From Tulasnella sp. 424 (taxonomy: Eukaryota > Basidiomycota > Agaricomycetes > Cantharellales > Tulasnellaceae): DNA of 64,000 nt. The notes beneath the pieces are model-generated. The model ran no database searches and was not told where the DNA came from. It saw nothing but the letters and a program-made list of their open reading frames with translations. The DNA lies in assembly GCA_019633425.1 (NCBI GenBank), contig WSUB01000173.1, positions 20,520 to 84,519 of the forward strand, given 5' to 3'. Numbering within the stretch: position 1 is the stretch's first letter; each line of letters starts with the position of its first letter. Below are positions 3,530 to 57,892 of the stretch, piece after piece. Both the position numbers and the translations under genes were made by a program.

Positions 3530-3569
3530 GAACTGTGGATACGGGTTGCTCGAAGGAGATTCCGCCTAA

Positions 3570-3997
3570 TGTCAGGGTTCCCTTAGGGTAGAAACCGAGC
3601 AAGGCGTATCTGACTATGAACTATGGTTTGGCAGAGAGAGATCACTAGGCAAGATCGTTGCGCTAGCACGATGGTTGAAGGGTAGACTATGACTGAATAG
3701 ACAAGAGGCGGAATGAGGAACAAACCTCCTCATTCTGCTGTACTTAAATACTAATGAGTGGCTGTGACTAGAATGTCCCGGTATAGTAAGGAAGGCGATA
3801 GAATCAGAGAGAACAGCTGATGCATCGCCTGAATAAGAGGAATGAGGAATGCATGAGGGAATGACTAAGGAACGTGAGGTAGTGGTGAGGCATAAACGGC
3901 GAATGCGGGGGATACGTCGATCATGAGGATCACGTGATGGGAATCTCGCCCGGGTCACGTGACTAAAGAAAGTGGATCATGTGACGAGGTCGTCAAA
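3570..3997 (-). repeat. 5' LTR of gypsy A1
   Basis: Starts TGTCAGGG and aligns along its length with the 427-bp LTRs at 32779 and 38633, with many substitutions. It contains the conserved hairpin at 3708-3738, here with one arm mutated (CATTCTGC instead of CATTCCGC). The last bases (CGTCAAACA) are ambiguous, so the right edge is uncertain by about 3 bp. Confidence 0.9.
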
Positions 3998-11824: not shown

Positions 11825-12357
11825 TGTCAGAGTCGAGATCGAGGTCGAGAGTTCAGGCGAGGCGCTTCAAGGTTTGAGGTTCGAGAGTCAAGAGGTAACA
11901 GAGATGTTGATACTAGAGGAGTAGACGAGAGGCGGAATGAGGAACAAACCTCCTCATTCCNNNNNNNNNNNNNNNNNNNNNNNNNNNNNNNNNNNNNNNN
12001 NNNNNNNNNNNNNNNNNNNNNNNNNNNNNNNNNNNNNNNNNNNNNNNNNNNNNNNNNNNNAGAGTCAAGAGGTAACAGAGATGTTGATACTAGAGGAGTA
12101 GACGAGAGGCGGAATGAGGAACAAACCTCCTCATTCCGTCCCGTTATTATAGTACAAAGGTGGAGGCGATGACTAACGAATGTGTAACAACATGGGGCGC
12201 TTACTGATGATACATGAGGCGACGCGTAAGCAAATGAAGGACAACGCGTAAGCGAACGGGTAGAAACCGATAGAAAATGATGGAACGACAAGATAAGGAA
12301 TGGGATGATAAGATAACGAGCGTGATAAGATAAGAGTGTGAGGACGGGGTCATCACA
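11825..12357 (-). repeat. 3' LTR of gypsy C, containing an artefactual assembly gap
   Basis: Removing the 100 N (11961-12060) and one copy of the 77-bp repeat flanking them (11884-11960 equals 12061-12137) leaves exactly 356 bp, the length of the partner LTR at 17106-17461. So the LTR is whole and the gap is false. Confidence 0.93.
11961..12060. other. Run of 100 N (scaffold gap)
   Basis: Exactly 100 N, the usual placeholder for a gap of unknown size. The 77 bases on its left are repeated exactly on its right. Confidence 0.98.
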
Positions 12358-16742: not shown

Positions 16743-17094
16743 TCTTTAGCAATTACTGTTCTGTCAATGGGAAGGATTTGGTAGATTCGGGCGAGTTGGG
16801 TTCCGATGGTTGGTAGGGGATGACGATGGTTCTTTCTTCTTCGTCAACTACGGCTACTTGCAGGATTGACAGGAGTTTCTGGATTTCGAACTGGAATCGG
16901 TCGTGTACGGCGATGTTGTATTGAGTGTTGGTTTGTTGGGCAATTCTGATGGACTGAGGAAGTCAGGCTAGTAATCCGGTTCTTTTGATTCGTTGGCTTT
17001 GTCGAGGTGTTGCTGTGGTTTCTGGGAATACTTCTTCGTAATCGGGGAGTTCTTGGTGCTTGGGCATGCAAAAGCGAGTCGCCTGTTATGGACA
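16743..17094 (-). pseudogene. ORF0 remnant of gypsy C
   Basis: Between the primer site and gag, one minus frame reads EERTIVIPYQP and, after a 1-nt shift, another reads YQILPID just before the gag ATG. The same IPY-x-P ... Y-x-(I/V)-LP-x-D block ends ORF0 in gypsy A and B, so this is a broken ORF0. No domain recognised. Confidence 0.55.
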
Positions 17095-17105
17095 ATTCCG
17101 CCTAA

Positions 17106-17461
17106 TGTCAGAGTCGAGATCGAGGTCGAGAGTTCAGGCGAGGCGCTTCAAGGTTCTAGGTTCAAGAGTCAAGAGGTAACAGAGATGTTGATACTAGAGG
17201 AGTAGACGAGAGGCGGAATGAGGAACAAACCTCCTCATTCCGTCACGTTATTATAGTACAAAGGTGGAGGCGATGACTAACGAATGTGTAACGACATGAG
17301 GTGCTTACTGATGATACATGAGGCGACGCATAAGCAAATGAAGGACGACGCGTAAGCGAACGGGTAGAAACCGATAGAAAATGATGGAACGACAAGATAA
17401 GGAATGGGATGATAAGATAACGAGCGTGATAAGATAAGAGTGTGAGGACGGGGTCATCACA
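17106..17461 (-). repeat. 5' LTR of gypsy C
   Basis: 356 bp, TGTCAGAG...CATCACA on the plus strand. It carries TATAATAA (minus strand, 17248-17255) and the conserved hairpin. The primer-complementary nonamer (minus ATTCCGCCT) is at 17211-17219, 36 nt downstream of the TATA start. Confidence 0.93.
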
Positions 17462-18767: not shown

Positions 18768-19194
18768 TGTACACTTTCACAAGCATTTTCAGTCCAGGAT
18801 GAAAAGTTACCAAGATTTTCCATTGACGCCACCTTTTCCCTCCAGAATGATGGAAAATGTTGGGAAATTAAGGGGTATTCCACATTCTCAGATTAGTCTC
18901 ACAGATAGATTGGGGCATGCTGAAAATTGTTCAAAATTTTCCTCAGCATTTTCTTCAGCTTGAAAAAGATGTAGACCATCTCCACTGAAAATGCTAATGA
19001 TTATTGAGACAAGAAAAGGGTCTATGTTTTTCAGTGCCATAGTGAAAACCTTCCACATTTTTCACTCACAGGAAAATCATCAGAGATTTTCATCATAATT
19101 TTCTAAAAATGAAAAATTATCAGGAAAAGTGATTCCCCTCCCAGCATTTTCTTCAAAATTTTCAGCTGCAGAAAATGTTGATTTGCTCCCTGTG
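18768..19194. repeat. Truncated second copy of the CACAGGGAGCAAATC MITE
   Basis: Matches the central and right parts of 3998-4768, including the palindrome centre, and ends at the same terminus (CTCCCTGTG at 19186-19194). The left arm is missing and the loop is partly deleted. Followed by TGG. Confidence 0.82.
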
Positions 19195-31062: not shown

Positions 31063-32778
31063 TTATGCAGCCTCTTTCAAGCTTGCGTGTTTGTGATAAA
31101 GCTGATATTGATTTGCGACGGCCTTGCTCAAATTTATTTCCGAAAGAGCGGTGCGATTCTCAAACGCTTCGGTAGTCTTAGCATTTAAAGCTTCGAGCCG
31201 CTCAAACTCTCGACGAAATTCAGCTTGTAAGTTTTGGTATAGCTTCGTTGGCTTAAACCAACGAAGTATTGCCAGTCCTTCAATGGACCGGACTCTAGAG
31301 AGCATAACGTAAACACTCTGGAGAGAGTGGCACTCAGCTAGATCGACGATAGCCTTCTCAAGTGTTCTTCCCTGCGACTTGTAGTCTGTATAGGCGTATG
31401 CTGGAAGCAGAGGCAGCTGCCATCGAGTTATCGTAAATTCACCTTCCCTTGTAGAGCTGTACTTAAAATGTGTTCTAGTTGGAACAATTGGATAGACATT
31501 GGGTCCCAAGGTTGGATCCACACAGGTTCCTGAACCGGGAATCTTCACGAGCGCGCAAACCGCAATATTAATCTTTCCCCCTTCTTTGGTTAAACGGTAC
31601 TTCACATTTAAAAGAACACCCTCAGCACCATTTACCACACTTTGAGCCAGGGCAATATTTTCTGTTATCATGATTTTCATTCCAGGAACGAGCGGTAATA
31701 TTCCTAACACATCATTTGTTGTCGATGAGCTAACACGTAGCAATCGACTTCTTTCCATAGAAGTGACCCGTCGTTTACCAACAAAGTCGTTAGCTTCAAA
31801 GTACTCGACCGTCTGATCTGTACTGGTAGCATACTGCTGGACCTTCATAGTATTGAGGCGATCTCGAATGCGCTTTCTCGTTACGATAAAAGGTGCATTG
31901 TGGAATTTGTCCAGACATACACCACTCTGTCTGAGATGGTCCAATGATCGATTTAGCAAGACCCAATAATCTGAAATGTTGTAATTATCGCCACTGCCAA
32001 TCTGCTCAGGGGTATGTGGAGACAGTCCTTGCCATGCCTTTCCAAAGCGAACTCGCTGTAGGAGGTTAGAATACCAGGGATCGGTCTGGTGGCGCAAATT
32101 TTTTCTGAGCTGTACAACAGTGTCAATCTGGCGCCAGAGGTAAGCTCCATGTAGAGCGGTCTGTCCTGTAATTGTTTGTGCAGTGTTGATAAAAACTCGT
32201 GAAACAAGGTCGTGACTAAAGAGAGGCTGCTGCCGAACAGGGCGTAGTTGTCCAAAGTCGCCAGAGAATATGTTCACTCCACCGAAAGGCCTTCCTTCAG
32301 TGTCCAGGCTAAGCCCTTTTGCAATAGAGATTTGGTGAGAAATTTGTCTCAACAGCTTAGCAGAAACCATTGAGATTTTGTCAAGTACCAGCCATTGAAC
32401 AGTACCCCAAATTTGAGAAAGAGTCTGTATATCAGGGCGGTGTGCTGACTTCGGTAATAATGTGAGAGAGTGGATAGTATAACCGCTGATAAGAACTGCT
32501 GCAATTCCGGTCGGCGCGCTCAAAAGCAAAGATTGCAAGAAGCCGCACCGTTGCAATATTTTAACGATCACGTTAATGACATGACTCTTACCAGTGCCAC
32601 TGACTCCTCCCAAATACATCAACAATTGATTACTTCTACCTGTCACGAAATGCTCAGCAACTATACGGAAAGCTCTCTCTTGTTCTTCGTTTCCTCGAAG
32701 ACTGCATTCGTCAACTATTCGCTCTATCTCTTCCAAAGGGTTACATCTCATAGCGTCGGTCTCTCGAATAGTAAGATG
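31063..32778 (-). pseudogene. Helitron helicase domain (Pif1-like, SF1B)
   Basis: Frame open from the gypsy A2 junction to the stop at 31063. Motifs in order: Walker A GGVSGTGKSH, motif Ia PTGIAAVLI, Walker B as LVLDKISMV, GDFGQLRPV, MITENIALAQSVVNGAEG, AYTDYKSQGRTLE and YVMLSRVRS. The Walker B Glu of the usual DEISM is Lys here, which should destroy ATP hydrolysis. The helicase would unwind donor DNA during rolling-circle transposition. It was cut from its Rep domain by gypsy A2. Confidence 0.92.
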
Positions 32779-33205
32779 TGTCAGGGTTCCCTTAAGGTAG
32801 AAACCGAGCAAGGCGTATCTGACGATAGACTATGGTTTGGCAGAGAGAGATCACTAGGCAAGATCGTTGCTCTAGCACGATGGTTGAGAAGTGGACTGTG
32901 ATTGAATAGACAAGAGGCGGAATGAGGAACAAACCTCCTCATTCCGCTGTACTTAAATACTAACGAGTGGCTGTGACTAGAATGTCCCGGTATAGTAAAG
33001 AACGTGGTGGAACCCAGTGGAAAGGCTGACGCGTTGCATGAGTAAGAACAATGAGGGGTGCATGAGGAGATGAATAAGAAACGTGCGGTGGTAGTGAGGC
33101 ATACAAGGTGAAGTGCGGGGATCAGTCGATCACGATAGACACGTGATGGGAATCCCGACTGGGTCACATGACTGGGAAAGTAGATCATGTGACGAGGTCG
33201 TCACA
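32779..33205 (-). repeat. 3' LTR of gypsy A2
   Basis: 427 bp, TG...CA ends. Hairpin at 32917-32947. Confidence 0.96.
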
Positions 33206-33215
33206 TCAGCCCCCC

Positions 33216-36200
33216 TTAAGGACGTCGACGAGGAGGTTGCTGACGAGTGGGACGTTGGCGAAGTTCAGGACCAAAGGCATCTGGGAATCGTTGGTGGAAC
33301 TCTTGTATCAAGTCAGGCATGTGCTCCAGTTGCTCTGCGTACTCCCATTTGTTTTCTTCGTCTCCGAATCCTTTCCATTTGAGTAGGTACTGCAGTCGCC
33401 CATACCAGTATCGCGAGTTTAGGATCTTCTCGACTTCCCACTCTTCTTGGTCTTCAACTATAACTGGAGGTGGTACTGGTTGAGTTCGCCCAGGGATGGT
33501 GTCTCGAGTATGGGGAGTGAGTAGGGATACGTGGAAAACCGGGTGGATTCTCATCGTGGCAGGGAGCATTAGCTGGTAGGCATGGGATGAGATTTTCTTT
33601 TCCACCTTGAAGGGGCCAAGTCGCTTTGCTGCTAGTTTGTCGGACGGCCTGTCGGTCTGGATGTTGCGAGCCTCTAGCCATACTTTGTCTCCTGGTTCAT
33701 AAGACGGTTCCTGTTCTCGATGGCGATCGTAATACTCCTTTTGACGTTCCTGGGCGAGGGCCATAGCAGACTGGATTTCCTTTTGGACAGCGGCGATTCG
33801 ACCAAGTCTTTCCTCCGCGGATGGGTTGGATTGCGCACTGGAGGGGAGGTCTGTGAGGATCGGGTTGTATCCTCTGCTAGCCATGAATGGGGACATGCCG
33901 ATAGATGATTGAATGGAGTTGTTGTACGAGAACTCGGCGAAGGGAAGGAGTTCGTCCCAGTCGTCTTGTCGGTGATTGCAGAATATCCGTAGGAAACCTT
34001 CGATTGTCTGGTTGGTGCGTTCTGTTTGACCGTCCGTTTGTGGATGGTATGCCGTGGACAGGACTGGTTTGACGCCTAGCCCCCCATACAGGGATTTCAA
34101 GAATGGGGCGTTGAATTGTGGACCTCGATCCGACACTACCCGCAATGGAAGGCCATGTAATCTCCAGATGTTGGCGATGAACAGTTCTGCTGTCTTGGCT
34201 GCGTCCAATCCATGTTCTTTAGTGGCAATGAGGTGGGCTTCCTTGAGCAGCCTGCAGACCACGACCATGATGGTGTCGTTTCCTTGGCGCGTTTCCGGCA
34301 ATTTGGTGATAAAGTCATAGGAAATGTCTTGCCAGGGTCCAGTGGGAACAGGGAGCGGTTTGAGGAGTCCGACTGGTTTGGAGTAGTGATGCTTGTTCCT
34401 TTGGCAGTTATCACAGGCATCGACGTATCGGTTGACATAGGCTTTCATCGACGGCCAGTAGTAGCCTCTGGATACAAGCTCCAAGGTCTTCGCTTGTCCT
34501 CCATGTCCTCCCATTAATGAGTCGTGGTACAGTTGGAGGATAGACCTTTTGATGTCGTCGTCGTTTGGGACGTAGATTCTTCCTCGGAACCGCAATAGTC
34601 CTTCATCGAGACTCCAGTCCGTCATTTCTTTCCTGACACGTGCTGGAGCTGCTTCTGGGTTGGCGTCGAAATAAGCTAGGATCGATTCTATGTTGGGATC
34701 TTCGTGAAGCTTCCATCCAATCTTGTCTACGATTTCCCGGTCGGTGGCCAGTTGGACTTCTTCCTGTTCGTCATCTTCATTGTCCGCATTGATTTCCGCA
34801 AACGTAGATGGCGGTAGGAGCGTTATTGCATCGATTTCCACGATTCTAGAGGTTGGTAGAAGCGTCAGGGGCGGTTCTTCTGCCCCCTCTTCAGGACGGT
34901 GGTCGGGTCGTCGTGACAGGGCGTCGGGTTTGCCGGATTTAGAGCCCGGGCGATAGGAAATGACGAAATCGTAACATTGGAGTGTCTGGAGCCATCGGAA
35001 TTGTCGGTCATTAAGGATCTGAGCCTTCTTGAAGTATTCCAGGTTCTTGTGGTCAGTGAGAATTCGGATAGTGAATTTGGCTCCTTCCAGGTAATGGCGC
35101 CAGTAGACCAGGGCTCGAACGATAGCCATCATTTCCTTATCCCAGATGTCATACCGACGTTCTGCGGGGGTCATTGATTTGGACATGAAGGCGATTGGGT
35201 GAATCTTGCCGTCGTTTGACTTTTGCGAAAGTACCGCTCCGTAGGCGTATCCCGAAGCGTCCGTTTCCAAGATGCAGGGTTTCTCCGGGTCATAATGGAC
35301 CAGTACTGGGGCCGTGGTGAACCTTTCCTTTAATTTGCCGAACGCTTCTTGGCATTCTTCTGACCAATCCCACTTCGTATCCTTTCGTAAGAGGTTGGTG
35401 ATCGGGCCTGTGATGTCGGAGAAGTCCTTGATAAAGCGTCGGTAGAAGTTGGCAAAGCCGAGGAAAGTTTGGATGTCCTTGACGTTCCTAGGAGTGGGCC
35501 AGTCCTGAATTGCTTCGACTTTGTGCTTGTCCATTGCGATGCCCTTTGGGGTGATCCATAGTCCCAGGTAGTCCGTTTCTTGTACAAAGAACTCGCACTT
35601 CTCCGGTCGACAATGAAGGTTGTTTGCGCGTAGCCGACGTAAGACTTCTTTGGTGACTTCGACGTTTTCTTTTCGGGTCTTGGTGGCCGGCATAGTATCG
35701 TCGAGGTAGTTCACCACGGAGGTATCCAGTAGGTCGTGGAGGATGTGGTTAATGAAACGTTGGAACACTGCAGGTGCGTTGCATAACCCAAATGGCATCA
35801 CAGTCCATTCGAAAAGGCCATAACGTGTCCTGAAAGCCGTTTTCCATTCGTCTCCTTCTGCGATGCGCATCAAGTGATACCCCCATCTCAAATCCAGTTT
35901 GGTGAACCACTCCTTGTCGCTGAGTCGGTCGATTAAGTCGGACGTGAGGGGAATAGGGTATTGGTCTTTCACCGTGATATCGTTGATTTTCCTGTAGTCG
36001 ATTACTAGCCGTTTTTTGCCATCTTTTTTCCCGACGAAGAAGCATGGAGAGGCCACTTGGGATTTCGATTCTCGGATGTAGCCCTTGGCCAGGTTTTCGT
36101 CTATCCATTTTCTTAGCTCCTTGCTGTCTTCGGCTGATCCAGCGTACAACCCGCCCGGTTTGGGGAGTTCCGCTCCTGGGATAAAGTCGATCTTACAGTC

Positions 36201-36968
36201 GTATGATCGGTGTGGGGGAAGCGCATGGTCGTTCGTTGGTTCTCTGAAGACGTCAAGAAATTCGTGGAGTTCTGCCGGAACTGCCTCTTCCAGGGGTTTC
36301 GCTTCTTTAACGTGTTCTGAGGCGATTTTGGCCGATATGCTGGTTCCAGCGATGGCGTCGGTTATGCTTGCTAGAGAGTCTTCGTCGACTGGTGGGAAGT
36401 CCAATACTTCGGGCGGGGGTTCCGTTCGGTCTGGTTGTCCGTTTGCCTTTCCTAGTACGTCGGCTGGGGTGTCCAGGCAGTTGTGAGAGCAGTATGGGTC
36501 TCGAAAAGTGATTCGGCGGGTTCTCCAATCGATTTCAGGATTATGCCTGTGGAGCCAAGGCGCTCCTAAGATTACTGCATGCCTCCCGATTTTGGCAACG
36601 TCCATTACCAGTTTCTCCTCATGGTTTCCCATCCTAAGTCGTCCTCTTACTTCACGGTCAATGATTCCAAGAGATCGTCCGTCTATAGCGGCAGGGTAAC
36701 GAGGGAATTCCTTTCGCCAGGTTGGTAGGCGATTTCGTTCGACAAAGTCTTTATTAATGAATTCAGAGGTGGCGCCAGAGTCGATCATGGCGGTTGGGAA
36801 TGCTGTGACTTGGTCGGTGCTCAGCTCAGTAGGTACGATCAGATGCGTAGAAGGGTCGAGTGGCGTCATACGAATCTTATTGGGCATGGGATATACATGA
36901 TCAGTACCTAAGAGCTGAGACCTTTGAGCATGGCGTGGCACAGTCACTACACGCTGTGGGGAAAACCC
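33216..36968 (-). CDS. pol: pol polyprotein of gypsy A2 (PR-RT-RNaseH-IN-chromodomain)
   Basis: About 1,250 codons, open from the -1 frameshift site (36962-36968) to TAA at 33216. Its in-frame start is not ATG (GTG near 36947), consistent with expression as a Gag-Pol fusion. Protease AMIDSGATSEF; RT with VIDYRKIND, PFGLCNAPAVFQRF and NYLDDTMPATKT; RNase H with LETDASGYAYGAVLSQ and ILTDHKNLEYF; integrase H-H-C-C finger (YHDSLMGGHGG, CDNCQRN) and D-D-E core (SYDFITKL, SDRGPQFN, TDGQTERTNQ); chromodomain EEWEVEKILNS...LLKWKGF at the C-terminus. All key residues are present. The chromodomain is expected to steer integration to marked chromatin. Confidence 0.96.
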   Translation of the reverse strand, partial: GFSPQRVVTVPRHAQRSQLLGTDHVYPMPNKIRMTPLDPSTHLIVPTELSTDQVTAFPTAMIDSGATSEFINKDFVERNRLPTWRKEFPRYPAAIDGRSLGIIDREVRGRLRMGNHEEKLVMDVAKIGRHAVILGAPWLHRHNPEIDWRTRRITFRDPYCSHNCLDTPADVLGKANGQPDRTEPPPEVLDFPPVDEDSLASITDAIAGTSISAKIASEHVKEAKPLEEAVPAELHEFLDVFREPTNDHALPPHRSYDCKIDFIPGAELPKPGGLYAGSAEDSKELRKWIDENLAKGYIRESKSQVASPCFFVGKKDGKKRLVIDYRKINDITVKDQYPIPLTSDLIDRLSDKEWFTKLDLRWGYHLMRIAEGDEWKTAFRTRYGLFEWTVMPFGLCNAPAVFQRFINHILHDLLDTSVVNYLDDTMPATKTRKENVEVTKEVLRRLRANNLHCRPEKCEFFVQETDYLGLWITPKGIAMDKHKVEAIQDWPTPRNVKDIQTFLGFANFYRRFIKDFSDITGPITNLLRKDTKWDWSEECQEAFGKLKERFTTAPVLVHYDPEKPCILETDASGYAYGAVLSQKSNDGKIHPIAFMSKSMTPAERRYDIWDKEMMAIVRALVYWRHYLEGAKFTIRILTDHKNLEYFKKAQILNDRQFRWLQTLQCYDFVISYRPGSKSGKPDALSRRPDHRPEEGAEEPPLTLLPTSRIVEIDAITLLPPSTFAEINADNEDDEQEEVQLATDREIVDKIGWKLHEDPNIESILAYFDANPEAAPARVRKEMTDWSLDEGLLRFRGRIYVPNDDDIKRSILQLYHDSLMGGHGGQAKTLELVSRGYYWPSMKAYVNRYVDACDNCQRNKHHYSKPVGLLKPLPVPTGPWQDISYDFITKLPETRQGNDTIMVVVCRLLKEAHLIATKEHGLDAAKTAELFIANIWRLHGLPLRVVSDRGPQFNAPFLKSLYGGLGVKPVLSTAYHPQTDGQTERTNQTIEGFLRIFCNHRQDDWDELLPFAEFSYNNSIQSSIGMSPFMASRGYNPILTDLPSSAQSNPSAEERLGRIAAVQKEIQSAMALAQERQKEYYDRHREQEPSYEPGDKVWLEARNIQTDRPSDKLAAKRLGPFKVEKKISSHAYQLMLPATMRIHPVFHVSLLTPHTRDTIPGRTQPVPPPVIVEDQEEWEVEKILNSRYWYGRLQYLLKWKGFGDEENKWEYAEQLEHMPDLIQEFHQRFPDAFGPELRQRPTRQQPPRRRP

Positions 36969-38185
36969 TGCGAGAAACCTCCATCATCGGGATCGGAACG
37001 ACTGGTGGACTGGGGGGCGATGGAGACAGTGAAGGAACTGTTGGGACGAGGACTGGGGGTGTTGATAATAGGAGAAGGTTGGGTAGCTGCAATGGTAGGG
37101 GCGTGATTGGATGGGTAGTCGATGACTCCTTGACGTTGCTGGTGAGCGGCGGCGGTGTGACCCTTCTCTCCGCAGTAGTAGCACAGCCCTTGATTTCGAC
37201 GGCATGCTCGTTCTTCGGGCGTCAATCTCCCCCTTCTGGTGGCGTCGATATGGATGGGAACTGGTTGATTGTGGGTGAAGGCGTTGGGGGCCTGGGAGGA
37301 AGGTTGAGGGGCAGGAGTGGGAGTCGGGCGTGGTGGCGGTCGATGCTGGGGCCTGTTGTTACTATGGTCGTTTCCTTTCTCCTGCTTTCGTTCCCAAAGG
37401 CGGTCATCAATTCGGATACTGAGCTCGATGAGTTTTTCCAGCGTAGCGGGTTTGTCATGGTAGACCAATCCATCTTTGACGTCTGCGCGGAGTCCCTGTC
37501 GGTAGGCGTGCATGAAAGCTTGCTCGTTCCAGGCGATGTCGGCCTTGATGCGTCTAAAGTCGGCGGCGTAGGTGGCGGCAGGTCGATTACCTTGGGACAG
37601 CGCTTCCAGTTTCCGGACGGCCGTTCCCTCTTTGTCTGGGTCCCCGAATGCTTTGATGAACTCATCTTTGAAGTCGCTCCAGTCACTTGATGCCGTTAGG
37701 GATTGCGTCATTAGGAGGTCCTTGAGAATGATGTCTCCCCAGGCTTGTGCGGTCCCAGTAAGGTAACTGAGAGCGAACTGAATCTGGGCTTCGTCGTCGG
37801 GGAAGTCGCTTGCACGTGCTCGGAAGTAGTTTTCGCAGCTTAGGATGAATCTCTCGGCATCTCCTCCTCGATTTTTCCCATCGTAGGTATCCGGCTCCTT
37901 GATCTTCATTCTGGTGGTTTTGGTGGTAGTGGGCTGGACTTGGGTGCCGACTCCTGAGGCTTGCAGGGCGGCGACGATGGCAGCGATTAGATTCGGGTCT
38001 ACTCCTGTGGGAAGAGTTGGCTGAGGGTTCTAAGTACTGGTGTTGGGTTGGGGCCCGGTGTTGCCGGCGTTGCCGGTTCCTGATGGATTCTGTAGATGGC
38101 TCATTGGAATAGTTGTTCTTCTTGGGGTGTTTGGAGCGGAGGCTGATCTGAGGTTGAATGCCGATGGTTGTGAGGCAAAGTTCAT
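36947..38185 (-). pseudogene. gag: gag of gypsy A2 (one in-frame TAG)
   Basis: ATG at 38185 (MNFASQPSAFNLRSAS) overlaps the ORF0 stop as ATGA. Codon 52 (38030-38032) is TAG, probably from CAG, in the Gln/Pro-rich N-terminal region. After it the frame is open for more than 340 codons: MKIKEPDTYDGK, a capsid-like region, and the zinc knuckle CYYCGEKGHTAAAH (C-x2-C-x4-H-x4-H). It ends TAG at 36947-36949. Translation from the internal ATG 37909 would give a 320-aa Gag lacking the N-terminus. Whether that supports mobility is unknown. Confidence 0.88.
36962..36968 (-). promoter_or_regulatory. -1 ribosomal frameshift heptamer G GGT TTT
   Basis: X-XXY-YYZ heptamer in the gag zero frame; pol is the -1 frame. 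The same heptamer in the same frame occurs at 15399-15405 (gypsy C) and is retained at 1937-1943 (A1). Confidence 0.75.
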
Positions 38186-38592
38186 ATACTATCGTATTCG
38201 GCGATGGTGTCTGCTGGCAGCACTTGGTAGGCTCGGAGGAGAGAACTGGTTGTGGGAACGTAGGGGATCAAGAGGTTGGTGCAGGAGAATGAGATGTCGG
38301 ATTCTGGGAAAGTGTCGATGAGGTAGGCAAGAGTGGCGGAAGGACAATCGGTGATATCGATTCTTGTGTGTTTAGTGGCTTGAGCGATTCTCTTCTTGAA
38401 GTTATATGGCTTTCCGTTGGTTGCGTAGTATTCGACTGGCTTGAAGACTTGTTCTGTGATAGGGTACTGATACTGTGGTTCGATGAGGTCGAGGACTTGT
38501 TGTTCTTCTTTGATTTCTCGTAGTCTTTGGAGATACTCGTTGGTCTTGGGGCTGAGTCGAGAGGTTTCTTGGAGTCGAGGAATTCTTGGCAT
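38182..38592 (-). CDS. ORF0 of gypsy A2, 136 aa, unknown function
   Basis: First ORF after the primer site (leader about 30 nt), intact. MPRIPRLQETSRLSPK at the start; charged coil-like segment EYLQRLREIKEEQQVLDLIE; C-terminal block NLLIPYVPTTSSLLRAYQVL followed by PAD. The stop overlaps the gag start (ATGA). A related protein precedes gag in gypsy B (52160-52681) and, broken, in gypsy C and A1. Conservation across three families argues it is a real gene. No homology to a known gag, env or nuclease is visible. Confidence 0.78.
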   Translation of the reverse strand: MPRIPRLQETSRLSPKTNEYLQRLREIKEEQQVLDLIEPQYQYPITEQVFKPVEYYATNGKPYNFKKRIAQATKHTRIDITDCPSATLAYLIDTFPESDISFSCTNLLIPYVPTTSSLLRAYQVLPADTIAEYDSI

Positions 38593-38621
38593 GAACTATG
38601 GATATGGGTTGCTCTAAGGAG

Positions 38622-38630
38622 ATTCCGCCT
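38622..38630 (-). promoter_or_regulatory. Putative self-primer binding site of gypsy A2
   Basis: Immediately after the 5' LTR the element reads TTAGGCGGAAT. AGGCGGAAT is perfectly complementary to ATTCCGCCT in the LTR (38769-38777). It lacks the TGG start of a tRNA-primed site. Confidence 0.7.
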
Positions 38631-38632
38631 AA

Positions 38633-39059
38633 TGTCAGGGTTCCCTTAAGGTAGAAACCGAGCAAGGCGTATCTGACGATAGACTATGGTTTGGCAGAGA
38701 GAGATCACTAGGCAAGATCGTTGCTCTAGCACGATGGTTGAGAAGTGGACTGTGATTGAATAGACAAGAGGCGGAATGAGGAACAAACCTCCTCATTCCG
38801 CTGTACTTAAATACTAACGAGTGGCTGTGACTAGAATGTCCCGGTATAGTAAAGAACGTGGTGGAACCCAGTGGAAAGGCTGACGCGTTGCATGAGTAAG
38901 AACAATGAGGGGTGCATGAGGAGATGAATAAGAAACGTGCGGTGGTAGTGAGGCATACAAGGTGAAGTGCGGGGATCAGTCGATCACGATAGACACGTGA
39001 TGGGAATCCCGACTGGGTCACATGACTGGGAAAGTAGATCATGTGACGAGGTCGTCACA
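38633..39059 (-). repeat. 5' LTR of gypsy A2
   Basis: 427 bp, apparently identical to 32779-33205. Drives transcription leftward. Confidence 0.96.
38769..38813 (-). promoter_or_regulatory. LTR core promoter: TATA box plus cap-proximal hairpin
   Basis: TATTTAA at 38807-38813 (minus). The perfect 11-bp hairpin GCGGAATGAGG / CCTCATTCCGC spans 38771-38801. Its 3' arm overlaps the primer-complementary nonamer at 38769-38777, 36 nt from the TATA start. Confidence 0.7.
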
Positions 39060-39064
39060 AGATG

Positions 39065-41318
39065 AGCGACAGTGTAATCTCCTAAAGACTCCAAAGTTAC
39101 TTTCACTCCATTTTCAAGGCTGAGATTGAGCCCACCCTGAACACGGGGGAGTTCTGATTGTTGACCCGTTTTGAAGCATTCAGCTTGCCGGATTTCTTAA
39201 GGTACTTCATCTGACGTTCATATCACTTATGTCACTGTCTATGGCCTCGGAGAATGGTGTACAGCCCTCAACCTGTGTATAAACAGGGGAGACTTGGTCG
39301 TATGCATTAGCCATAATTGTCATGGCATTACGAACCTCTTTGTCAGAGGAGGATTCTTCATTTGCTGTGGAAGTAAGCGTATCTTCGGTCTTGTCGACAT
39401 CTGAATCACCATCCAAAGCTTCATCCTGAATCAATGCTGATTCCAAGTCTCCATTCATGGCAGTCAAGTCCGGTCCCCCATCTTCAATAGCCGGCACGTA
39501 TATGTTAGGGGCTCGGCCCTCTCAACGGAGTATATCATGCGTAATACGTGCATCTTTACATTCATTCAGAACATTCATGTTATGCATGACGAGTCGGAGG
39601 TTCTCGGGAAAATCGAAGTGGTCAAAAGCGTCCGACCAGGACTTGTTGGGGTCCTGAATATCTCTCACTTATTGCCAGGGCTTGGATAAGATCAACATTG
39701 CACGGCACCACTCTTCGCGAGACTCGAGATTGTTTTCGGGTCATGAAACGGAAGGTCCTAGAAGTACAGGAACTAGTGGGACATCTCTCTTTCGAAACAT
39801 GTGTGTATCAGCTTGAGGGTGCATTTCAACACCAAGTGTCGAGTAGGTTCCCCGGTCTAAAGGTTTTCTCCCTGCAGTATTCTCATTTCTCTTCGCTTGC
39901 CTAGCTTCGTCATATGGCTTCGATATTTTAACGACTCCGGCTACAAACTCCCACAGCAACATGGTTAAAAAGGGAGAATTGGACGATTGAAGGCGATAGT
40001 CATAGATCTGGTTCGAAGCTGTAACGGAATTCTCGATGAGTGACAGAATAACTTCAGGCTCAGTGTCTATGAGATTTTCGGCATCGTCTGACTCGGCAAG
40101 CAAACTTTCAGAACAATCTTGCGCATTTGTAGCATGTTCCTCACTTGCCTCGTGCCGATAAACAGGAATTTTGGTATTCCGGAAGGAATCGCAATTGTTA
40201 TCCTGCTTTCGGACCCGACGATCAAAATAACCCCAGTAAAGAATCTGAAACTTATGGCTTGTATAGTGATCACCACCTCCAATGATGAAACTCATGACTT
40301 GCTGGTGCGATAACTCTGTACGAGACATCATAGCATTTACACTTTTCGTCAAGAGGCTTTTCTCCTTCAGACCCTGGTCAACCCCCGCCTGGCCATCAAA
40401 TTTGAGCTCGTTCCGTTCGATTGCGTACGTCAGGGCTGCTAGTCCTATATGAACCGGAAGTACGGTCTTAGTCACATAGTCGGTAAAGTAATACACAGTG
40501 GCTTTGGCTCCTTCTCCAGAACCAATATATTTGATACCCATATTCCCTTGAATCAGACCGATCACAACAACCTGATAGTTATTAATTTGCGGGTGCCACC
40601 GACGTAAGACAATAGATCCAGTTTCCTCATCTATATAAGAATTTAAACGGGTTGTCCCATTGATTCCCATTCTACAGTGCTCGTCGTCGCGTGGTTCCGA
40701 TTTTTTAAGTTTCTTCCAGCAAGTGTCAGTGTGAATATGCCAATTACATATGTCAGACACATACTCCAAAAAATCGTTGTCGAATTTAGTCAAATCTTTG
40801 TAGTCCGCAATTTGCGGGCCATAGACGGAGCTTGGGTGAGGCTTTTCCCTGGAGTGAATTGGTTTCGGTACAGAAGGATCTGTGACTGGCTGACTTGCAT
40901 CTGGCAAAGCTGTCCGTATATTCTCCTCTAACCATGCAAACATTCGCTTCTCGTATTCCGGATCAGAAGCCCTCCTATCTCGCAGAGCCTGTGGATTTAG
41001 GTTTCCTTTTAACCAAATCAATAAGTGTAGGTGTAATGTGCCTTTTCCTTGTGCCTCAACTGTTCCGTAATACGCGGTACAGATACCAAACAGACCTTCG
41101 CCCTTACCAAATTGCAGGACATGTCGAATGAAACTAGTAATCATAACATCAAAAAAGATCGCCGCTGCTGCTGGGTGATCCGCTACAAGTTGTGCCTGCA
41201 GACACTTATCACCTTTCTCAATAAACTGAAGAGCTCTGGGGTCATTTCCTACACGGACACGAACGAGTGGATGACGGACATCAGAGGGGTTGATTGTAGT
41301 AAACAAACTGGGGGTTCC
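39065..41318 (-). pseudogene. Helitron Rep (HUH) domain and linker
   Basis: Frame from the CACTA junction: GTPSLFTTINPSD, then the HUH motif GTLHLHLLIWL, then FLEYVSDICNWHIHTDTC, and the tyrosine motif YYFTDYVTKT. The Rep nicks and rejoins single strands at Helitron ends. The main frame stops at 39741-39743 (TGA, probably CGA). The linker toward the helicase (SREEWCRAMLILSKPW, NVLNECKDARITHD) has two more stops before the gypsy A2 insertion. An acidic segment at 39207-39497 belongs to this linker. Confidence 0.88.
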
Positions 41319-41758
41319 TTCCACTGTGCAGGCCAAAGCTGCTGAAATGCCGCGTCCCACGGTTGAATTTCAGCAATTCGGCAGTTTCGGGCTGAAAGCG
41401 GTATGACGCAGTTCGGCAAGGTTTTTGCTGAAATTCATCCCCGCTGAAATCTGCTACTTACATGATTAGTTTTCAAATTTCAGCTTTTCGAAGAATTCGT
41501 TCACGTCAACATTAACAACGTTACGTACCGGCCAGGTGGGTGTGCAGCTCCAAGTAGGAAGCCGTTCCCCAACGGACAATGAACCAGAGAGTACATAAAT
41601 AGAAGACAACACATATTGTTAGGTTACAACACATCTTGTAATAAAGTTAAATAATAATCCACCATGTCGGTGTACAATGAAGCCCACAGAGTTCGAATAT
41701 ATATAGTACCTTTTGCATCTCGAGGAATTCTGCGCGATCAACCTCTCAAGTGTACGAG

Positions 41759-44700
41759 CTACCGTCGTCCAAGTCGAGTGTTTTGAGGATGTACAGCTGT
41801 CTCGGGGTCATCTCCGATTTGGGTGACTTCTCTTGAACCTAACTGCTCCACAAAGATCCATTTGTTGCGATCAACGACGCGGCCCACCAGGCACTGAAGT
41901 GATTGGATATCAATCACTTCAAGCGGATCAAACGTGTTGGCGTGACACACGACTTGCTCAGCACCGTTTTGTCCAGTGGGACGGATTGGTAAGACAGCGG
42001 CGAGTGCAAGGGTTTCGGGTGTTGTGATCCTGAGCGCTGCGCATGGGGGAATTTTGAGGACGAAAAGGCTCTGTAGTTGGCCATAATAGTCTGCTTCGAC
42101 GTCAACCCCGGCTGGAGCCCGATTCCTTCGATGGAAGTGGCGATCTTGTAGCACAGTATACTAATACGACGATTTAGAGTGTAAGTTAAGAACCCTGAAA
42201 TGCGGATCTGATAGTTCACCTTCACGAATGTCATATCTCGCCTTCCTGGTCGGCTAGGGTCTTTAATAAAGTCTAGCGCATGCATCATATCTCCGTCGTT
42301 TAGCCACTGTAATTTACCCCAATGAATTGCACTCCGTGGAATTAAGGATTTGACGTCTGAACGCCGTGCGTTGAAGCGAGTGGCGATGTGATTGACGAGA
42401 CGATCAGAGATGAGGTGCGAGAATATCCGAGTTTCAGATGGAGCTACAAATACGGAGTTGGGATCTTCAAGGAGGCGGTATAAAAACCGAGATTGTTGGA
42501 ATTAGAGTGAATGAAAATAGAGGACATCGACGCTTACATCCAAGGACTTGTACTCCTCGTTGTTCGATATCACGACGCTTTCGCAAGTCGAGGTTTTTGC
42601 GGAGGCCATAGAGGATTTTGATTTGATACAGCTGCGAGAGCTCGGTTACCCGTCGGTCGATGCTAGCGTAGGGGAACCGGCGACTCTTGATCGCAGGGAG
42701 GAGAGACCCGCAGAAACGTTCCATAGGAAAGGCCCAGTAACACCACACGGGTCCCATCATGCGAACGCTGTCGGAAATATGCAGTAGAGCGTGTATTGGT
42801 AAAGTGCATACTGGGAGGCGCTGCAGGTCTTCTTGGAGATAGATTCTGTATCGCAGCCGTCAGTCCTCAGCGTTATTCGAAAGAGAAGCCGCGCTCACCG
42901 TTCGTATTCTGTAACCCATTCAGCGAAACCATTTTTGAGTCTGTCGACATCTTCAAAGCTGATTTCCCGACTTAGACATTTGTTAAGGAGTGAGACTAAA
43001 CGTGTGAAGTGGGTGTAATAAATCAGTTTCTTGAATCGCTTTCGCAAGAGTGCTGGAGCGAGGTACATGCACCATTGGGACCACGACTCGGCGATGAAGT
43101 GGCTCCGCTCTTCAGCGATATTTGGAACCCTGCATCCGAAGGCTGAAGGGATTGAGTCCCCTGAGATCTTGCAAGCCTCGCCAATCGCGCTCCAGATGGT
43201 TTTGTCAAGACCGTATTCCTCCTTCCCTTCGTCAAGGTTTTTGTAGTCGCCACACCATAAATTGGCAAGGGTTTTGACGACGTTTTCCCACACCACATGC
43301 ATAAAGTCGTACGGAAATGATTGAGGAAAGCGGAGAGAGGAGAGTTCAGCAAGGATGGGGTAACCTTTGATGCCAGTGGCAGTCGCCCGACGTTTCTCTT
43401 CGGCATCATTGGCAGAGGAGACAACGAAGCTGGCATGGCTCATGAACTGAGAATGGGTTCGAAGAGGAAGGTTTAAGGGATCGTAGCTTTCCCCATTTGG
43501 TCTCCAGAGAGGGGTGTAGAGGGTGGTAATTTTAGAAGGTGGGGGGATGCGAATACCGGTGATCATGCACATCCGACAAGGGCGACGGCCGTTGTGCCCT
43601 TTCATCTGCATCAACTTCGCCACCGCAGGAATATCTCCGAACGCAAGTAAAATGTATGCATGAAGAGTAAACGACTCTTCTTTCACGGCATCGAAGGCCG
43701 TAATCCCTTTTGCCAATGTCTTCATCTCCTCCACAAGTGGCCAGAGGAAAGAGTCGGTGTCTTTCACTTGCTTCGGGCCAGGTATGACGCCGACGCAGAG
43801 TATGTTGTCCAAGTGAAATCGTACTTCTGGGGGGAGATTGTAGTTGAAAAGGATGATGGGCCAACACGTTTGCTTCCGACGCTTGAAGGGGCAGAAACCA
43901 TCGAAGGAGAGACCAAGCGCGATATCCCGGTCATCGGAGAAAAAGCTGTGGCCGAGGCTTTCTTCGTCAACTGTAACTGGCTCGTCCAGAAGCGATAGGT
44001 AGTGCTCTCCATCGAAGACATCAATGATGTCTTCCCAGTCGGCGGCGGGATCGTTCGGGTCTGGCGATGACAACTTGAAGAGTGAGCGGTACATGAGATT
44101 TGTGACTGTGTCCGGGTTTCGAAACCACTGCTTGAGTCGAGGTATAAGCGGCTGGTAGTTGAAAATCTTCACAGGCTTTCCATTTCGGTCGTAACGAGGC
44201 TCCCGGCAGTACGGGCAATGGTTAAGCTTTGCATACTGTCCAGTGAAGCAGCAGCATGACTTGCGACAGCAGTGGTACTGGCGAGGGCGAACACCGGAGA
44301 GCTGGCTAATCCGACGCTGTAGAACATCGATTGACGGCACACTACCCTTCAACCGTCGAAAGCTACGAGGGAGCTTGAGGTAAGCGTTGTCGCCGAGGTG
44401 GGTATCGACTTTGTAGTTAAACGCTTCAAAGTAATCCATATCATCTTCGGTGACGTTCCGCGCTTAGAAATTATAAAGACATGGGTAAGGATCTCGTCAA
44501 TTCGATGGAAGATGTGAGATAAGGAGGAGTAACTGACCTCGCTTCACCGCTTCAGCATTAAAACAATCGTTAAGCTTCTCCTCTGCCGAGACCCGCGTCG
44601 AAACGCCTTGAATCCACTCCACATCGTCATCCGAATCTGAATCGAACTTGCTATTGTCAGAGAGGACGCCTTCCAGCTCGAATTCTGAATCCGCGGCGTC

Positions 44701-51509: not shown

Positions 51510-51854
51510 TGTCACGATCCTAGCCTAAACGATAAGATAAGATACTGGTTGGGACTCGGGCATGACCGAATACTCGTTGCAACCTTGAGGCATGTACTCA
51601 TATGCTCACTCAGCGCCTCATGGTAACCACACAGTCATTACTCAGACGACGCGCAAGCGATTCCATGACGTTCCTTGATATTCCATGACGATCTTTATAT
51701 ACCAGCCTCAGTGAGGAGGGTTGTTCCTCACTTTGCCTCTTGTATTCTATCTACAGCAAAGCCTCTCACGAATACGACAACTTACACCTCTACTCTGTTA
51801 CTTCTTGACTCTGAGACCAGCCTCGCGATAAGGATACTCTATCGGAGTCTGACA
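51510..51854 (+). repeat. 5' LTR of gypsy B
   Basis: 345 bp, starting TGTCACGATCC. It lacks 19 bp present in the 3' LTR around the ACGCG...CGTAAGCGATT segment and has a few substitutions. Confidence 0.95.
51696..51738 (+). promoter_or_regulatory. LTR core promoter and hairpin of gypsy B
   Basis: TATATA at 51696-51701. Hairpin GTGAGGA...TCCTCAC at 51711-51731. ACTTTGCCT at 51730-51738, 34 nt from the TATA start, is complementary to the primer site. Confidence 0.7.
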
Positions 51855-51856
51855 TT

Positions 51857-51865
51857 AGGCAAAGT
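51857..51865 (+). promoter_or_regulatory. Putative self-primer binding site of gypsy B
   Basis: AGGCAAAGT, two bases after the LTR (TTAGGCAAAGT), is the exact complement of ACTTTGCCT at 51730-51738. It differs from the A/C site (AGGCGGAAT) at three positions, each compensated in the LTR. Confidence 0.72.
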
Positions 51866-52159
51866 CACCAAAGGTGTACCTTGTCACCCTGGAATCCTCG
51901 GCCCTTTCGTACAAAACCAACTCTCCTGAAACCTGGGACGGGTTCACCTTCAGACAGGAACCCACCGACCTCATCGACCATCTCGAGCACTCTATCAAGA
52001 ACCCTTACTGGAATAAAAGTGAAAGGCTCTTCTTGCGCAACCACCTCGCGATTCTAAAGCATCTTCAACGTATTTCTAGTGGCACCTCTCGCAGTACGTA
52101 TCGCCAAGAAACAGCAACAGCACAAACCAGCAAAACAGACCGCACGAAAGGTCGTCCTT

Positions 52160-53847: not shown

Positions 53848-56800
53848 ATAGCACGCACTCAAGAGCTCAAGTTCTGGAACGGGTACTACGCACACATGTA
53901 TTCAGTAATATGGAATCTATCGCATCTATGGAAAACCCGAGCCCCAGACACATCGTCGTGCCTACTACACTTATTGTTGCAGGATCAGAAACAAGACCAA
54001 CTGCAATGATCGACACAGGAGCAACATCGTCATTCGTTAACAAGAAATTTGTAGAAAAACATCAATTAGCAACGCAACCCAAAGAAAGAGCAATACCCGT
54101 AAAAGATGTAGATGGAAGACCACTGGGGAAGATTGAAGAAGAAGTACAAGCGCAAATACGGATCGGAAACCATGGCGAAAGTATTAAACTAGACGTCGCC
54201 CCGATAGGAAATCACCCGGTCATATTAGGACTTCCATGGCTACAGCAACATAATCCGACTATCGACTTCGAGCGAAACCGAGTAGTGTTTACTAGTGAAC
54301 AGTGCGCGGACCAATGCCTGGATAGCGCGCCGGACGTAAAGGGACGGATAGATGGAAAGCCATACACACCACCAATTGAGGACCAAGAATATGACGAAGA
54401 GGACTTGGAGGAACTGATAGCGGCAATCGGTGAGAGTCGAGAACCAAGGCTAAAGAATATATCGGCACACATAGCCTCTCAACACACAAAAGAGGAAAAA
54501 CCACCTGAGGAAATTGTACCAGCGGAATATCACGACTTCCTAGATGTTTTCGATGAAGAAGCATGCGACGAAATGCCCCCACACCGGCAATGTGACCTAA
54601 CAATCGATTTGGTTCCTGGGGCGCCATTACCAAAACCTTCAGGATTATACCCAATGTCGGATGCTGACAATAAGGAACTACGCACATGGCTGGACGATAT
54701 GCTAAAAAAAGGCTTCATCCAAAAATCAAACTCGCCAGTAGCCGCACCCCGCTTCTACGTTCCGAAGAAAGACGGGAAGAAGCGACTGGTGATGGATTGG
54801 AGAAAGCTCAATGAAATCACTGTGAAGGACCAATTCCCACTTCCAAGAACGGACGAAACGATGGACTTATTACGCGGATCGGAGATATTCTCTCGGTTCG
54901 ACCTGCGCAATGGATACAACCTGATACGTATTAAACCAGGGGATGAGTGGAAAACGGCATTCAAAACCAGGTGGGGCTTATACGAATTCAAGGTTATGCA
55001 CTTCGGCCTCTGTAATGCACCAGCAGTCTTCCAACGTTTCTTGAATGATGTACTTGCGCCAGTACTGGACCTTACGGCAACAAACTACTTGGACGACACA
55101 CTGTCATTTGCAAAGGAACTAGGGCCCCATATCGAAACGAATAAGACGATCCTGTCTCAGTTCCGAAAATATCGACTGTTCTGTCGGGCGAAGAAATGCG
55201 AATTCCATGTACCAGAAACGGAATGGTTAGGAGTCCATGTCAACAAAAACGGATTCCGTATGGACCAGTGGAAGGTGGAAGCCATCAAGGAGTGGAAAGT
55301 ACCCCGAAATGTTACCGACGTCCGCTCATTCCTAGGATTTGCCAACTTCTACCGACGATTTATAAAAGACTTCGCAAAAATCGCACGACCGCTACACGAC
55401 CTAGAAAAGAAGGACACCCAGTTTAAATGGGCTGAAGCTCAACAAACAGCGTTCGATTCAATCAAACAAGCAATAACTACTGCCCCTGTTCTGGCGCACC
55501 CTGACCCTGCAAAACCGTATGTCTTGGAAACGGACGCTTCAAATTACGCCTATGGAGCAATACTATCACAAAAACAAGACGACAAGAAGGAACACCCCGT
55601 TGCCTTTCTCTCCAAATCATTATCACCAGCGGAACAAAACTACGACATATTCGATAAGGAAATGCTAGCAGTGGTAAAAGCCCTGGAGCACTGGAGGACC
55701 TATTTGCAAGGAACAGAAGATCCGGTCAATATCATCACGGATCACAGAAACCTTCGGTACTTCAAAGACGCCAAAATCACCAACCAAAGGCAAGCAAGAT
55801 GGGCGGACCTCCTAACGCATTACAACTACCACATCGGGTACCGACCAGGAGTGATGTCAGGGAAACCAGATGCACTATCGCGACGATCGGATCTGCGACC
55901 TGAAGGGGGGGCTAACGACGACAAAAGAAATCAAACCGTGTTCAACAAAGAAGCATTCGCAACCATCGCTGCTATATATGCGTCCGATGCTCAGATTCTG
56001 GACCAGATAAAGGATGTATTGCAAAAAGATGAAGACCTGAAAACCACGATTACGCTCCTAAACGCCGATCCAACCGTCGCACCAGCCGAAATTCGAAACG
56101 CAGTCAAGGACCTAAAATGGGAAGATGGGATGCTGTACCGATGCGGGAAGATCTACGTACCAAACAATGCAGATATAAAACGAAGGATACTGGAACTCTA
56201 CCACGATTCAAGGATCGCCGGACACCCTGGGCAAGCTAAGACACTGGAACTAGTGTCGCAAGGATACTACTGGCCGTCCCAAAAGCAATACGTAAACCGA
56301 TATGTCGAGCAGTGTGATCCATGCCAAAGAAACAAGAACCGGCATGCAAAGGAGCATGGACTACTGAAGCCGTTGCCAATCCCCGACAGACCTTGGCAAT
56401 CTGTATCGTACGACCTAATAACAGAACTGCCAGAATCCGACGGATACACCGCAATCCTAGTCGCAATGTGTCGCCTAACAAAGCAGGCACACTTCGTCAA
56501 AACAGTAAACGAAGTGGATACGGAAGGCGTGGTTGATCTCCTGTTGAATAACGTATGGAAGCTGCACGGCACACCGATCGACACCGTATCAGATCGAGGG
56601 CCGAACTTCGAGTCCAAGTTGATGTGAGCCGTATACAAACGCCTGGGAATCCAGCCCAAGTTCTCAACAGCATACCATCCACAGACAGACGGTCAAACAG
56701 AGCGAACCAATGCAACCCTCGAAACATACCTGCGATTCTATACGTCCCACCGACAAAATGACTGGTCCCAACCGTTACCATTAGCAGAGTTCGCATACAA

Positions 56801-57497
56801 CAACGCAACCCATAGTACGACCGGGATGTCCCCTTTCTACGCGAACTACGGATTCAACCCAACATTCACAGATGCACCAAGCCAGAATCAATCGAGCCCA
56901 GGAGCGGAGGAACTTGCCAATCGTTTCGCAAATATCCGAGAAGAACTACAAGCCAGTATGAAACTCGCACAGGAGAAACATGCAGAGTTCTTCAACAGAA
57001 AACATGGTAATACACCAACGCTAGAAGTCGGCCAGTTAGTTCTACTGGAAGGCACAAATATTCGTACGGATCGACCAGCAAGGAAGTTAGGACCAAAACG
57101 ACTCAGGCCAGACAAAATAGTCGAAAAGGTGTCAACTCATGCCTACCGATTACTGCTCCCACCAAGTATGAAGATCCATAATGTGTTCCATGTCTCTCTG
57201 TTAACACCATACAAGATCGATACCATCCCTGGGCGTGTGTATGAGGAACCACCCCCTGAAATCATTGACGGAGAAGAGGAATACAAGGTTGACGAGATCT
57301 TAAACTCTCGTTACTGGCGTCGCAGACTCCAATATTTCGTCAAATGGGTCGGTTACGGAGAAGGTCACAACTCTTGGGAAGACCTGAGCAATTTGGAAAA
57401 CGCGGAGGACAAGATCAAAGAATTCGATACCCAATACCCAGATGCAGTATCACCAGAACAAAGGACCTCGCAGCGTCATCAGAACAAAAACCGCTAA
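53832..57497 (+). pseudogene. pol: pol of gypsy B (one in-frame TGA in integrase)
   Basis: About 1,220 codons in one frame. Protease AMIDTGATSSFVNKKF; RT VMDWRKLNEIT, HFGLCNAPAVFQRF and NYLDDTLSFAKE; RNase H LETDASNYAYGAILSQ and DKEMLAVVKALEHW; integrase finger YHDSRIAGHPGQ, CDPCQRN; core SYDLITELP, SDRGPNFESKLM, then TGA at 56625-56627, and in the same frame TDGQTERTNATLE. Chromodomain EEYKVDEILNS...YFVKWVGYG near the end, stop at 57497. All catalytic residues are present apart from the nonsense codon, which is consistent with CGA to TGA. Confidence 0.93.
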
Positions 57498-57528: not shown

Positions 57529-57892
57529 TGTCACGATCCTAGCCTAAACGATAAGATAAGATACTGGTTGGGACTCGGGCATGACCGAATACTTGTTGCA
57601 ACCTTGAGGCATGTACTCATATGCTCACTCAGCGCCTCATGGTAACCACACAGTCATTACTCAGACGACGCGTCAGCGTCGAAAGGACACGTAAGCGATT
57701 CCATGACGTTCCTTGATATTCCATGACGATCTTTATATACCAGCCTAAGTGAGGAGGGTTGTTCCTCACTTTGCCTCTTGTATTCTATCTACAGCAAAGC
57801 CTCTCACGAATACGACAACTTACACCTCTACTCTGTTACTTCTTGACTCTGAGACCAGCCTCGCGATAAGGATACTCTATCGGAGTCTGACA
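57529..57892 (+). repeat. 3' LTR of gypsy B
   Basis: 364 bp. Hairpin AAGTGAGGA / TCCTCACTT at 57747-57771 (9-bp arms, perfect). ACTTTGCCT at 57768-57776. Confidence 0.95.

Follow-up and report, generated by a model that had tools for sequence, protein, structure and literature searches.

The analysed stretch of Tulasnella sp. 424 DNA (64,000 nt, hereafter the window) carried four gypsy elements, designated A1, A2, B, and C, whose priming features are listed in Table 1. Pfam searches detected RVT_1, RT_RNaseH, Integrase_H2C2, and Chromo domains in A1, B, and C, as well as SH3_Tf2-1 in A1 and B, and the best-scoring solved chain for the A1 pol was Ty3. Polyprotein identity was 66% between A and C and 50% between B and either of them. 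The LTR boundaries were considered real since A1, B, and C, for which target duplications could be read (A2 extends beyond the window edge), were each flanked by a 5-bp duplication. The two A1 LTRs were identical across 427 bp, indicating that this family moved recently. The junctions shared a common layout, in which the LTR end CTGACA was followed by TT and then by a 9-nt site. In the 3' LTR of gypsy C (11825-12357, minus strand) the hairpin block was partially duplicated and an N run was present. No match was obtained within the window with Rfam at gathering scores.

Table 1. Priming-related features of the gypsy elements in the window (positions are those of the window; PBS, primer binding site).
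Feature	Position	Strand	Evidence and remarks
Gypsy B 5' LTR, TGTCAC...CTGACA	51510..51854	+	94% to 3' LTR 57529-57892; target duplication GCGGC
Gypsy B TATA box, TATATA	51696..51701	+	Sequence; nonamer 34 nt downstream
Gypsy B hairpin AGTGAGGA...TCCTCACT, around predicted RNA start	51710..51732	+	Sequence, alignment, folding
Gypsy B self-primer nonamer ACTTTGCCT, predicted RNA nt 1-9	51730..51738	+	Sequence, junction pairing
Gypsy B PBS AGGCAAAGT, after TT spacer	51857..51865	+	Sequence, junction pairing
Gypsy B U5 arm GACAACTTACACCT, PBS-flanking helix	51776..51789	+	B-group alifold, alignment rows
Gypsy B post-PBS arm AGGTGTACCTTGTC	51872..51885	+	B-group alifold, alignment rows
Gypsy B integrase C-terminal part, SH3_Tf2-1 + chromodomain	56628..57494	+	Pfam PF24626, PF00385
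Gypsy A1 5' LTR	38633..39059	-	Identical to 3' LTR 32779-33205; target duplication CATCT
Gypsy A1 hairpin CGGAATGAGGA...TCCTCATTCCG	38772..38800	-	Sequence, alignment, folding
Gypsy A1 self-primer nonamer ATTCCGCCT	38769..38777	-	Sequence, junction pairing
Gypsy A1 PBS AGGCGGAAT	38622..38630	-	Sequence, junction pairing
Gypsy A1 U5 arm TTGCTC	38660..38665	-	Helix alignment
Gypsy A1 post-PBS arm GAGCAA	38609..38614	-	Helix alignment
Gypsy A2 self-primer nonamer ATTCCGCCT	3706..3714	-	Junction L030
Gypsy A2 PBS AGGCGGAAT	3559..3567	-	Junction L030
Gypsy C 5' LTR	17106..17461	-	Repeat pair; target duplication GAGGG
Gypsy C hairpin	17214..17242	-	Sequence, alignment, folding
Gypsy C self-primer nonamer ATTCCGCCT	17211..17219	-	Sequence, junction pairing
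Gypsy C PBS AGGCGGAAT	17095..17103	-	Sequence, junction pairing
Gypsy C U5 arm TCGCCTG	17135..17141	-	Helix alignment
Gypsy C post-PBS arm CAGGCGA	17079..17085	-	Helix alignment

An earlier reading of the letters alone (the original prediction) held that the post-LTR site of these elements is not of the TGG type and is complementary to a stretch of the same LTR, and both points were borne out. All four sites began with AGG. In A1, A2, and C the site AGGCGGAAT complemented ATTCCGCCT in its own LTR, at the positions predicted, and gypsy B had a pair of its own, with ACTTTGCCT in the LTR and AGGCAAAGT 2 nt past it. The LTR partner, said to begin 34-36 nt past the TATA start, was measured at 34 nt in B and at 36 nt in A1 and C. 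The unshuffled B, A1, A2, and C LTRs contained one site complement apiece, while 5000 dinucleotide shuffles per LTR gave a site complement in 7, 14, 9, and 11 cases, respectively.

By LTR searches of the 46.8-Mb assembly (448 contigs), 35 distinct 5' LTR/PBS junctions were recovered from this one genome. The nonamer paired with its own site over 9/9 positions in 29 of them; four contained one G:U pair (L007, L061, L093, and L028) and two contained one mismatch (L045 and L089). Because junctions were selected with the patterns TTCCTCAYTYYGCCTC (the block, ≤3 substitutions) and TGACATTAGG (≤1 substitution), the selection largely predetermined part of the block and the first three site bases; the other six site bases were free. 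A 36th junction (L040), which fell outside the selection rule with two LTR-end substitutions, also paired 9/9, bringing the exact matches to 30/36; L036 and L072 were redundant with L093 and L092. One junction (L086) carries an N and was omitted from the resulting 34-row alignment and from the start-site and two-strand foldings described below. In this alignment 99.3% of the nonamer:PBS cells were paired, compared to 22 to 48% in registers shifted by 1 to 3 columns, and none of 500 shuffles equalled either the observed pairing or the observed covariation score.

The extent of the match was constant as well. The base preceding the nonamer was C in 35/35 junctions and the base following the site was never its partner G, so that the match ended at one constant base. 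The two bases past nt 9, CT against TT, were unpaired in the four rows examined. The first base after the site was C in 32 of the 35 junctions and T in the other 3, and such a C would fit a reverse transcriptase copy of the cap G. The distance from the TATA start to the nonamer was 36 nt in 27 of 34 junctions, 34 nt in 5, and 33 nt in 2, the 35th junction carrying an N in this region.

A control gypsy clade from the same genome (C246), subjected to the same test, showed a complement of ≤6 nt at the LTR junction vs. 9 nt in each of the four window elements. Its LTRs (L105, from 1545; L096, 1832-2225) were identical across 394 bp, and its T-rich internal start (TTTTTCAGTCTAAAC) held neither a TGG site nor a self-primer. 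No LTR pair was present in the stretches fetched from four other loci (C363, C193, C226, and C12), one of which (C193) contained a 50-bp, 86% match to the start of the control LTR. The sequence CTGACATTAGGC had 32 matches in the genome; those on C65, C162, and C336 were dropped because the fetched stretches lacked the nonamer block. Searches of viral contigs by protein and DNA pattern yielded no relatives.

The differences between the families had originally been read as three compensatory changes. Three pairs did change on both sides in the 34 rows, but they amounted to one switch between two states rather than to repeated covariation. The LTR was in the B state in 7 of the 35 junctions; the other 28 had the A/C state, either exact (25) or altered by one base (3). 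A search for a third state, in which four nonamer bases were left free and TTCCTCA and GCCTCTYGT were fixed (copies with other flanks escape this pattern), gave 82 matches in the genome and none in the reversed control, distributed over ATTCCGCCT (59), ACTTTGCCT (17), ATTCTGCCT (5), and ATCCAGCCT (1). The single ATCCAGCCT copy was dropped, its fetched stretch containing neither the hairpin arm nor the LTR end. Covariation of nonamer and site in a larger set of copies, which had been proposed as a check, was thus found for three pairs, but with only two main states, and 314 of 500 shuffles had as many double-changed primer:PBS pairs, i.e. there was no excess. Since only two main states were found, the matched double changes between the families may represent a single event. 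A matched change of primer and site would be expected from the mechanism itself because each new site is partly copied from the primer; as such it supports self-priming without needing three independent rescue mutations.

Further pairing was present around the PBS. A helix between U5 and the post-PBS region, formed in A and C, had 83.6% of its aligned cells paired, with four double-changed pairs, a number equalled in 223 of 500 shuffles. Its arms varied between the A and C families and within each: most A copies had TTGCTCGG/TCGAGCAA and L045 had TTGCTTGG/TCAAGCAA, while most C copies had TCGCCTG/CAGGCGA and three (L058, L063, and L085) had TCGCCTT/AAGGCGA. The B rows were without this A/C-type helix and accounted for most of the unpaired cells; they had a longer helix of their own, GACAACUUACACCU with AGGUGUACCUUGUC (B-group alifold, alignment rows). 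A short TGTC:GACA contact beside the primer was conserved, showed no covariation, and was no better than in shuffles. The lowest-energy folds of leaders beginning at the nonamer held the nonamer:PBS pairing in 7/9 A, 13/19 C, and 1/7 B copies. Most B copies failed, and L001 and L050, which are the B and C copies of the window, were among those whose lowest-energy fold lacked the pairing, so that leader folding alone is no proof of self-priming.

The aligned copies also have in common a hairpin that extends with its 3' arm into the nonamer, with 96.8% of cells paired over 34 rows. Two outer pairs were double-changed when B was compared with A/C (one from GC to AU, 4 rows; one from AU to GC, 7 rows), and 311 of 500 shuffles reached two such changes. 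Its four inner pairs, GAGG/CCTC, were invariant across the 34 rows. The majority share was 0.93 in the hairpin block, 0.96 at the LTR end and PBS, 0.61 in the TATA area, 0.43 in U5, and 0.63 in the post-PBS region, a contrast that is overstated because rows were picked partly by the hairpin block and gap-rich U5 columns were counted as 0. The most serious competitor among the explanations considered accepts self-priming and regards the hairpin as a promoter element in the DNA, a palindromic factor site, with no role in the RNA. We consider it quite conceivable, if not the probable case: it would account for the invariant inner pairs and for the high share of a block situated between TATA and start (0.93 vs. 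0.43 in U5, with the same overstatement), but double-changed outer pairs, perhaps from one event, would be unexpected for a fixed protein site.

The position of the RNA start was addressed by folding. When the RNA started at the nonamer, the mean probability of nonamer:PBS pairing was 0.75 (A/C, n=27) and 0.50 (B, n=7); for starts at -3, -6, and -12 it was 0.76-0.78 (A/C) and 0.38-0.55 (B), and for starts at -24 or -30 it was 0.09 or 0.06 (A/C) and 0.06 or 0.05 (B), respectively. In these models folding permits any RNA start from about -12 to +1. With both hairpin arms in the RNA the primer pairing was nearly lost, and the whole hairpin is therefore probably present in the 3' copy only. Given the TATA spacing of 33 to 36 nt, the constant end of the match, and the folding loss at -24 and -30, the RNA is better seen as starting, by prediction, at the nonamer, with the 5' arm of the hairpin left in U3. 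Priming from the 3' arm of an LTR hairpin, as first proposed, was accordingly retained as to the nonamer being the primer, but the folding spoke against a whole hairpin at the RNA 5' end. Alternatively, the RNA could start upstream, and the hairpin at its 5' end could act as a switch that closes the primer until Gag or reverse transcriptase opens it. The energies in four copies (-12.7 to -22.6 kcal/mol for the hairpin vs. -11.9 to -13.8 kcal/mol for nonamer:PBS) do describe competing folds, but this explanation is unlikely: a start at -24 would fall just 9-12 nt past the TATA start, the PBS match stops at the first base of the nonamer, even if copying from a longer RNA end is conceivable, and the nonamer:PBS pairing drops to 0.05-0.09.

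A start at the nonamer leaves a second nonamer in the 3' copy. In two-strand foldings with the whole hairpin, the 3' nonamer took the site with a mean probability of 0.00 (A/C) and 0.05 (B), and when the 5' arm was omitted these values were 0.27 and 0.56, respectively. These energies should not be over-read, since the correct 5' pairing in B was still low (0.19) with the whole hairpin. On this modelling, the hairpin in the 3' copy may mask a decoy second nonamer from the site. It is very unlikely that the 3' nonamer copy (in the 3' R of the same or a partner RNA) is instead the working primer, regulated by the hairpin: without the 5' arm it does compete for the site in cofolding, but it hardly does so when the natural arm is present, and we know of no case in which an internal primer is released.

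Returning to a masking role of the hairpin, the matching changes in its arms suggest selection, as the arm is not recopied from the primer in the way that the site is, or else template switching within the palindrome during synthesis. Extending this, self-primer, site, and a U3 'lock' arm might form a three-part co-evolving code, in which, with transcription starting inside the hairpin, the 5' primer is born unlocked, the 3' copy is locked, and the lock arm follows by selection. We advance this only tentatively and hold it to be less probable than not; if true, one sequence would serve as primer at one end of the RNA and as protected template at the other.

Altogether, we consider it probable (approximately 0.87) that this chromodomain gypsy clade (A, B, and C) self-primes reverse transcription in the manner of Tf1/sushi elements, with a start at the nonamer, a predicted pretzel-like fold, and predicted masking by the 3' hairpin. 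Tf1-like self-priming had been part of the original prediction, and it is now backed by the 35 junctions, the constant limits of the match, and a second helix, flanking the site, with covarying pairs between the A and C families. The nonamer's first A, 33-36 nt past the TATA start, would be where transcription begins, and the first 9 nt of the RNA, whose potential to pair is evident from the junctions, are predicted to fold back onto the site 2 nt past the 5' LTR. The U5/post-PBS helix and the short TGTC:GACA contact would hold this fold, as in the Tf1 'pretzel'. RNase H would then cut after nt 9, by analogy with Tf1, and the released RNA would prime minus-strand DNA. Given the sequence of steps in reverse transcription, plus-strand synthesis would copy the attached primer and thereby rewrite the site, so that primer and site would change together and changes in the LTR would reach the site with no selection involved. 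The hairpin would span the start, and with its 5' arm in U3 it is predicted to be whole in the 3' copy only.

The usual mode of priming among LTR elements is by tRNA, which makes a host tRNA or tRNA fragment the obvious candidate; here it is highly improbable. The sites begin with AGG rather than TGG, the matched LTR changes would be left unexplained, and a host tRNA with a better match to the site, foreseen as counter-evidence, was not encountered: no match exceeded 7/9 in the 20 of 59 listed tRNA loci that were compared (13 of the 20 also called by ARAGORN), where 59 is a lower bound and the 18 loci on C258 and C314, perhaps organellar, were left out. Priming of the A, B, and C elements by tRNA is not supported. 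That a chance match was merely inherited by related copies would agree with there being two states only, one of them common to A and C, but is next to negligible given 7-14 hits in 5000 shuffles per LTR, both states being matched at the same place, and the double changes in the U5 helix.

The proposed self-priming by A, B, and C elements resembles known systems in several respects. According to the portions of the sources available, the primer of Tf1 consists of the first 11 bases of its own RNA (PMC7175516), and the pretzel of Tf1 and its relatives combines primer:PBS pairing with two PBS-flanking duplexes (PMC10085805). As far as these portions describe them, Tf1 and Tf2 of Schizosaccharomyces pombe share with the present elements a site just past the 5' LTR and a chromodomain, along with a primer from the RNA 5' end and PBS-flanking helices, the last two of which are predicted here (PMC7175516, PMC10085805). 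They differ in the length of the match, which is 9 nt here as opposed to 11 bases in Tf1 (PMC7175516), and in the hairpin over the primer at the start site, of which the same portions contain no mention for Tf1/Tf2 (PMC7175516, PMC10085805). In Tj1 of S. japonicus an LTR stretch likewise complements the site and a self-primer has been proposed; its sequence and host are different, and the excerpted text of that report does not describe two families whose changes match (PMC4600332). The Tcn1 clade (Cryptococcus, mosses, and club mosses) also comprises chromoviruses grouped with Tf1/sushi, and self-priming is predicted for the majority of them in the sections available (PMC6317226, PMC7175516). 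For SM-Tcn1, an extract of the study (PMC2864245) gives a T-rich stretch after the LTR and no identified primer, unlike in A, B, and C. Since the survey of PMC6317226, as described in the available part, required ≥10 matching bases, a 9-nt primer would have been passed over.

A Tf1/sushi-type mode of action is thus supported, the likeness resting on the priming layout and the domains. This kind of priming is already known, the role of the hairpin is what we infer, and the hairpin at the start site is the distinctive feature. Within the self-priming literature covered, in the portions available (including PMC5006619 and PMC3601003, the founding Tf1 papers being outside this scope), no hairpin at the start site that covers a self-primer was found to be described. 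The elements add a well-populated clade to those that self-prime, and the natural swap between two primer/site pairs in one genome makes the mechanism testable. Self-priming RNA carries the primer sequence at both ends, and if the role of the hairpin holds, it would answer a neglected question, namely how the 3' copy of the primer stays off the binding site.

Other mobile sequences surrounded the gypsy elements in the window. A PIF1-helicase ORF and a Helitron_like_N ORF lay on either side of A1 in the same orientation (31066-41369, minus strand), and A1 may have inserted into a Helitron. Inverted repeats of 240 bp (90%; 5019-5259 and 10841-11080) flanked ORFs of 498, 233, and 611 aa, none of which had a Pfam match above the cut-off, even at E≤1, nor the 611-aa ORF a PDB match at E≤1; repeats and ORFs perhaps constitute a terminal-inverted-repeat element of unassigned kind. 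Two head-to-head arms of ~340 bp were present at 3998-4768, each about 91-92% like a single copy at 18853-19194, and a Transposase_21 (tnp2) ORF was located at 42898-44463 on the minus strand.
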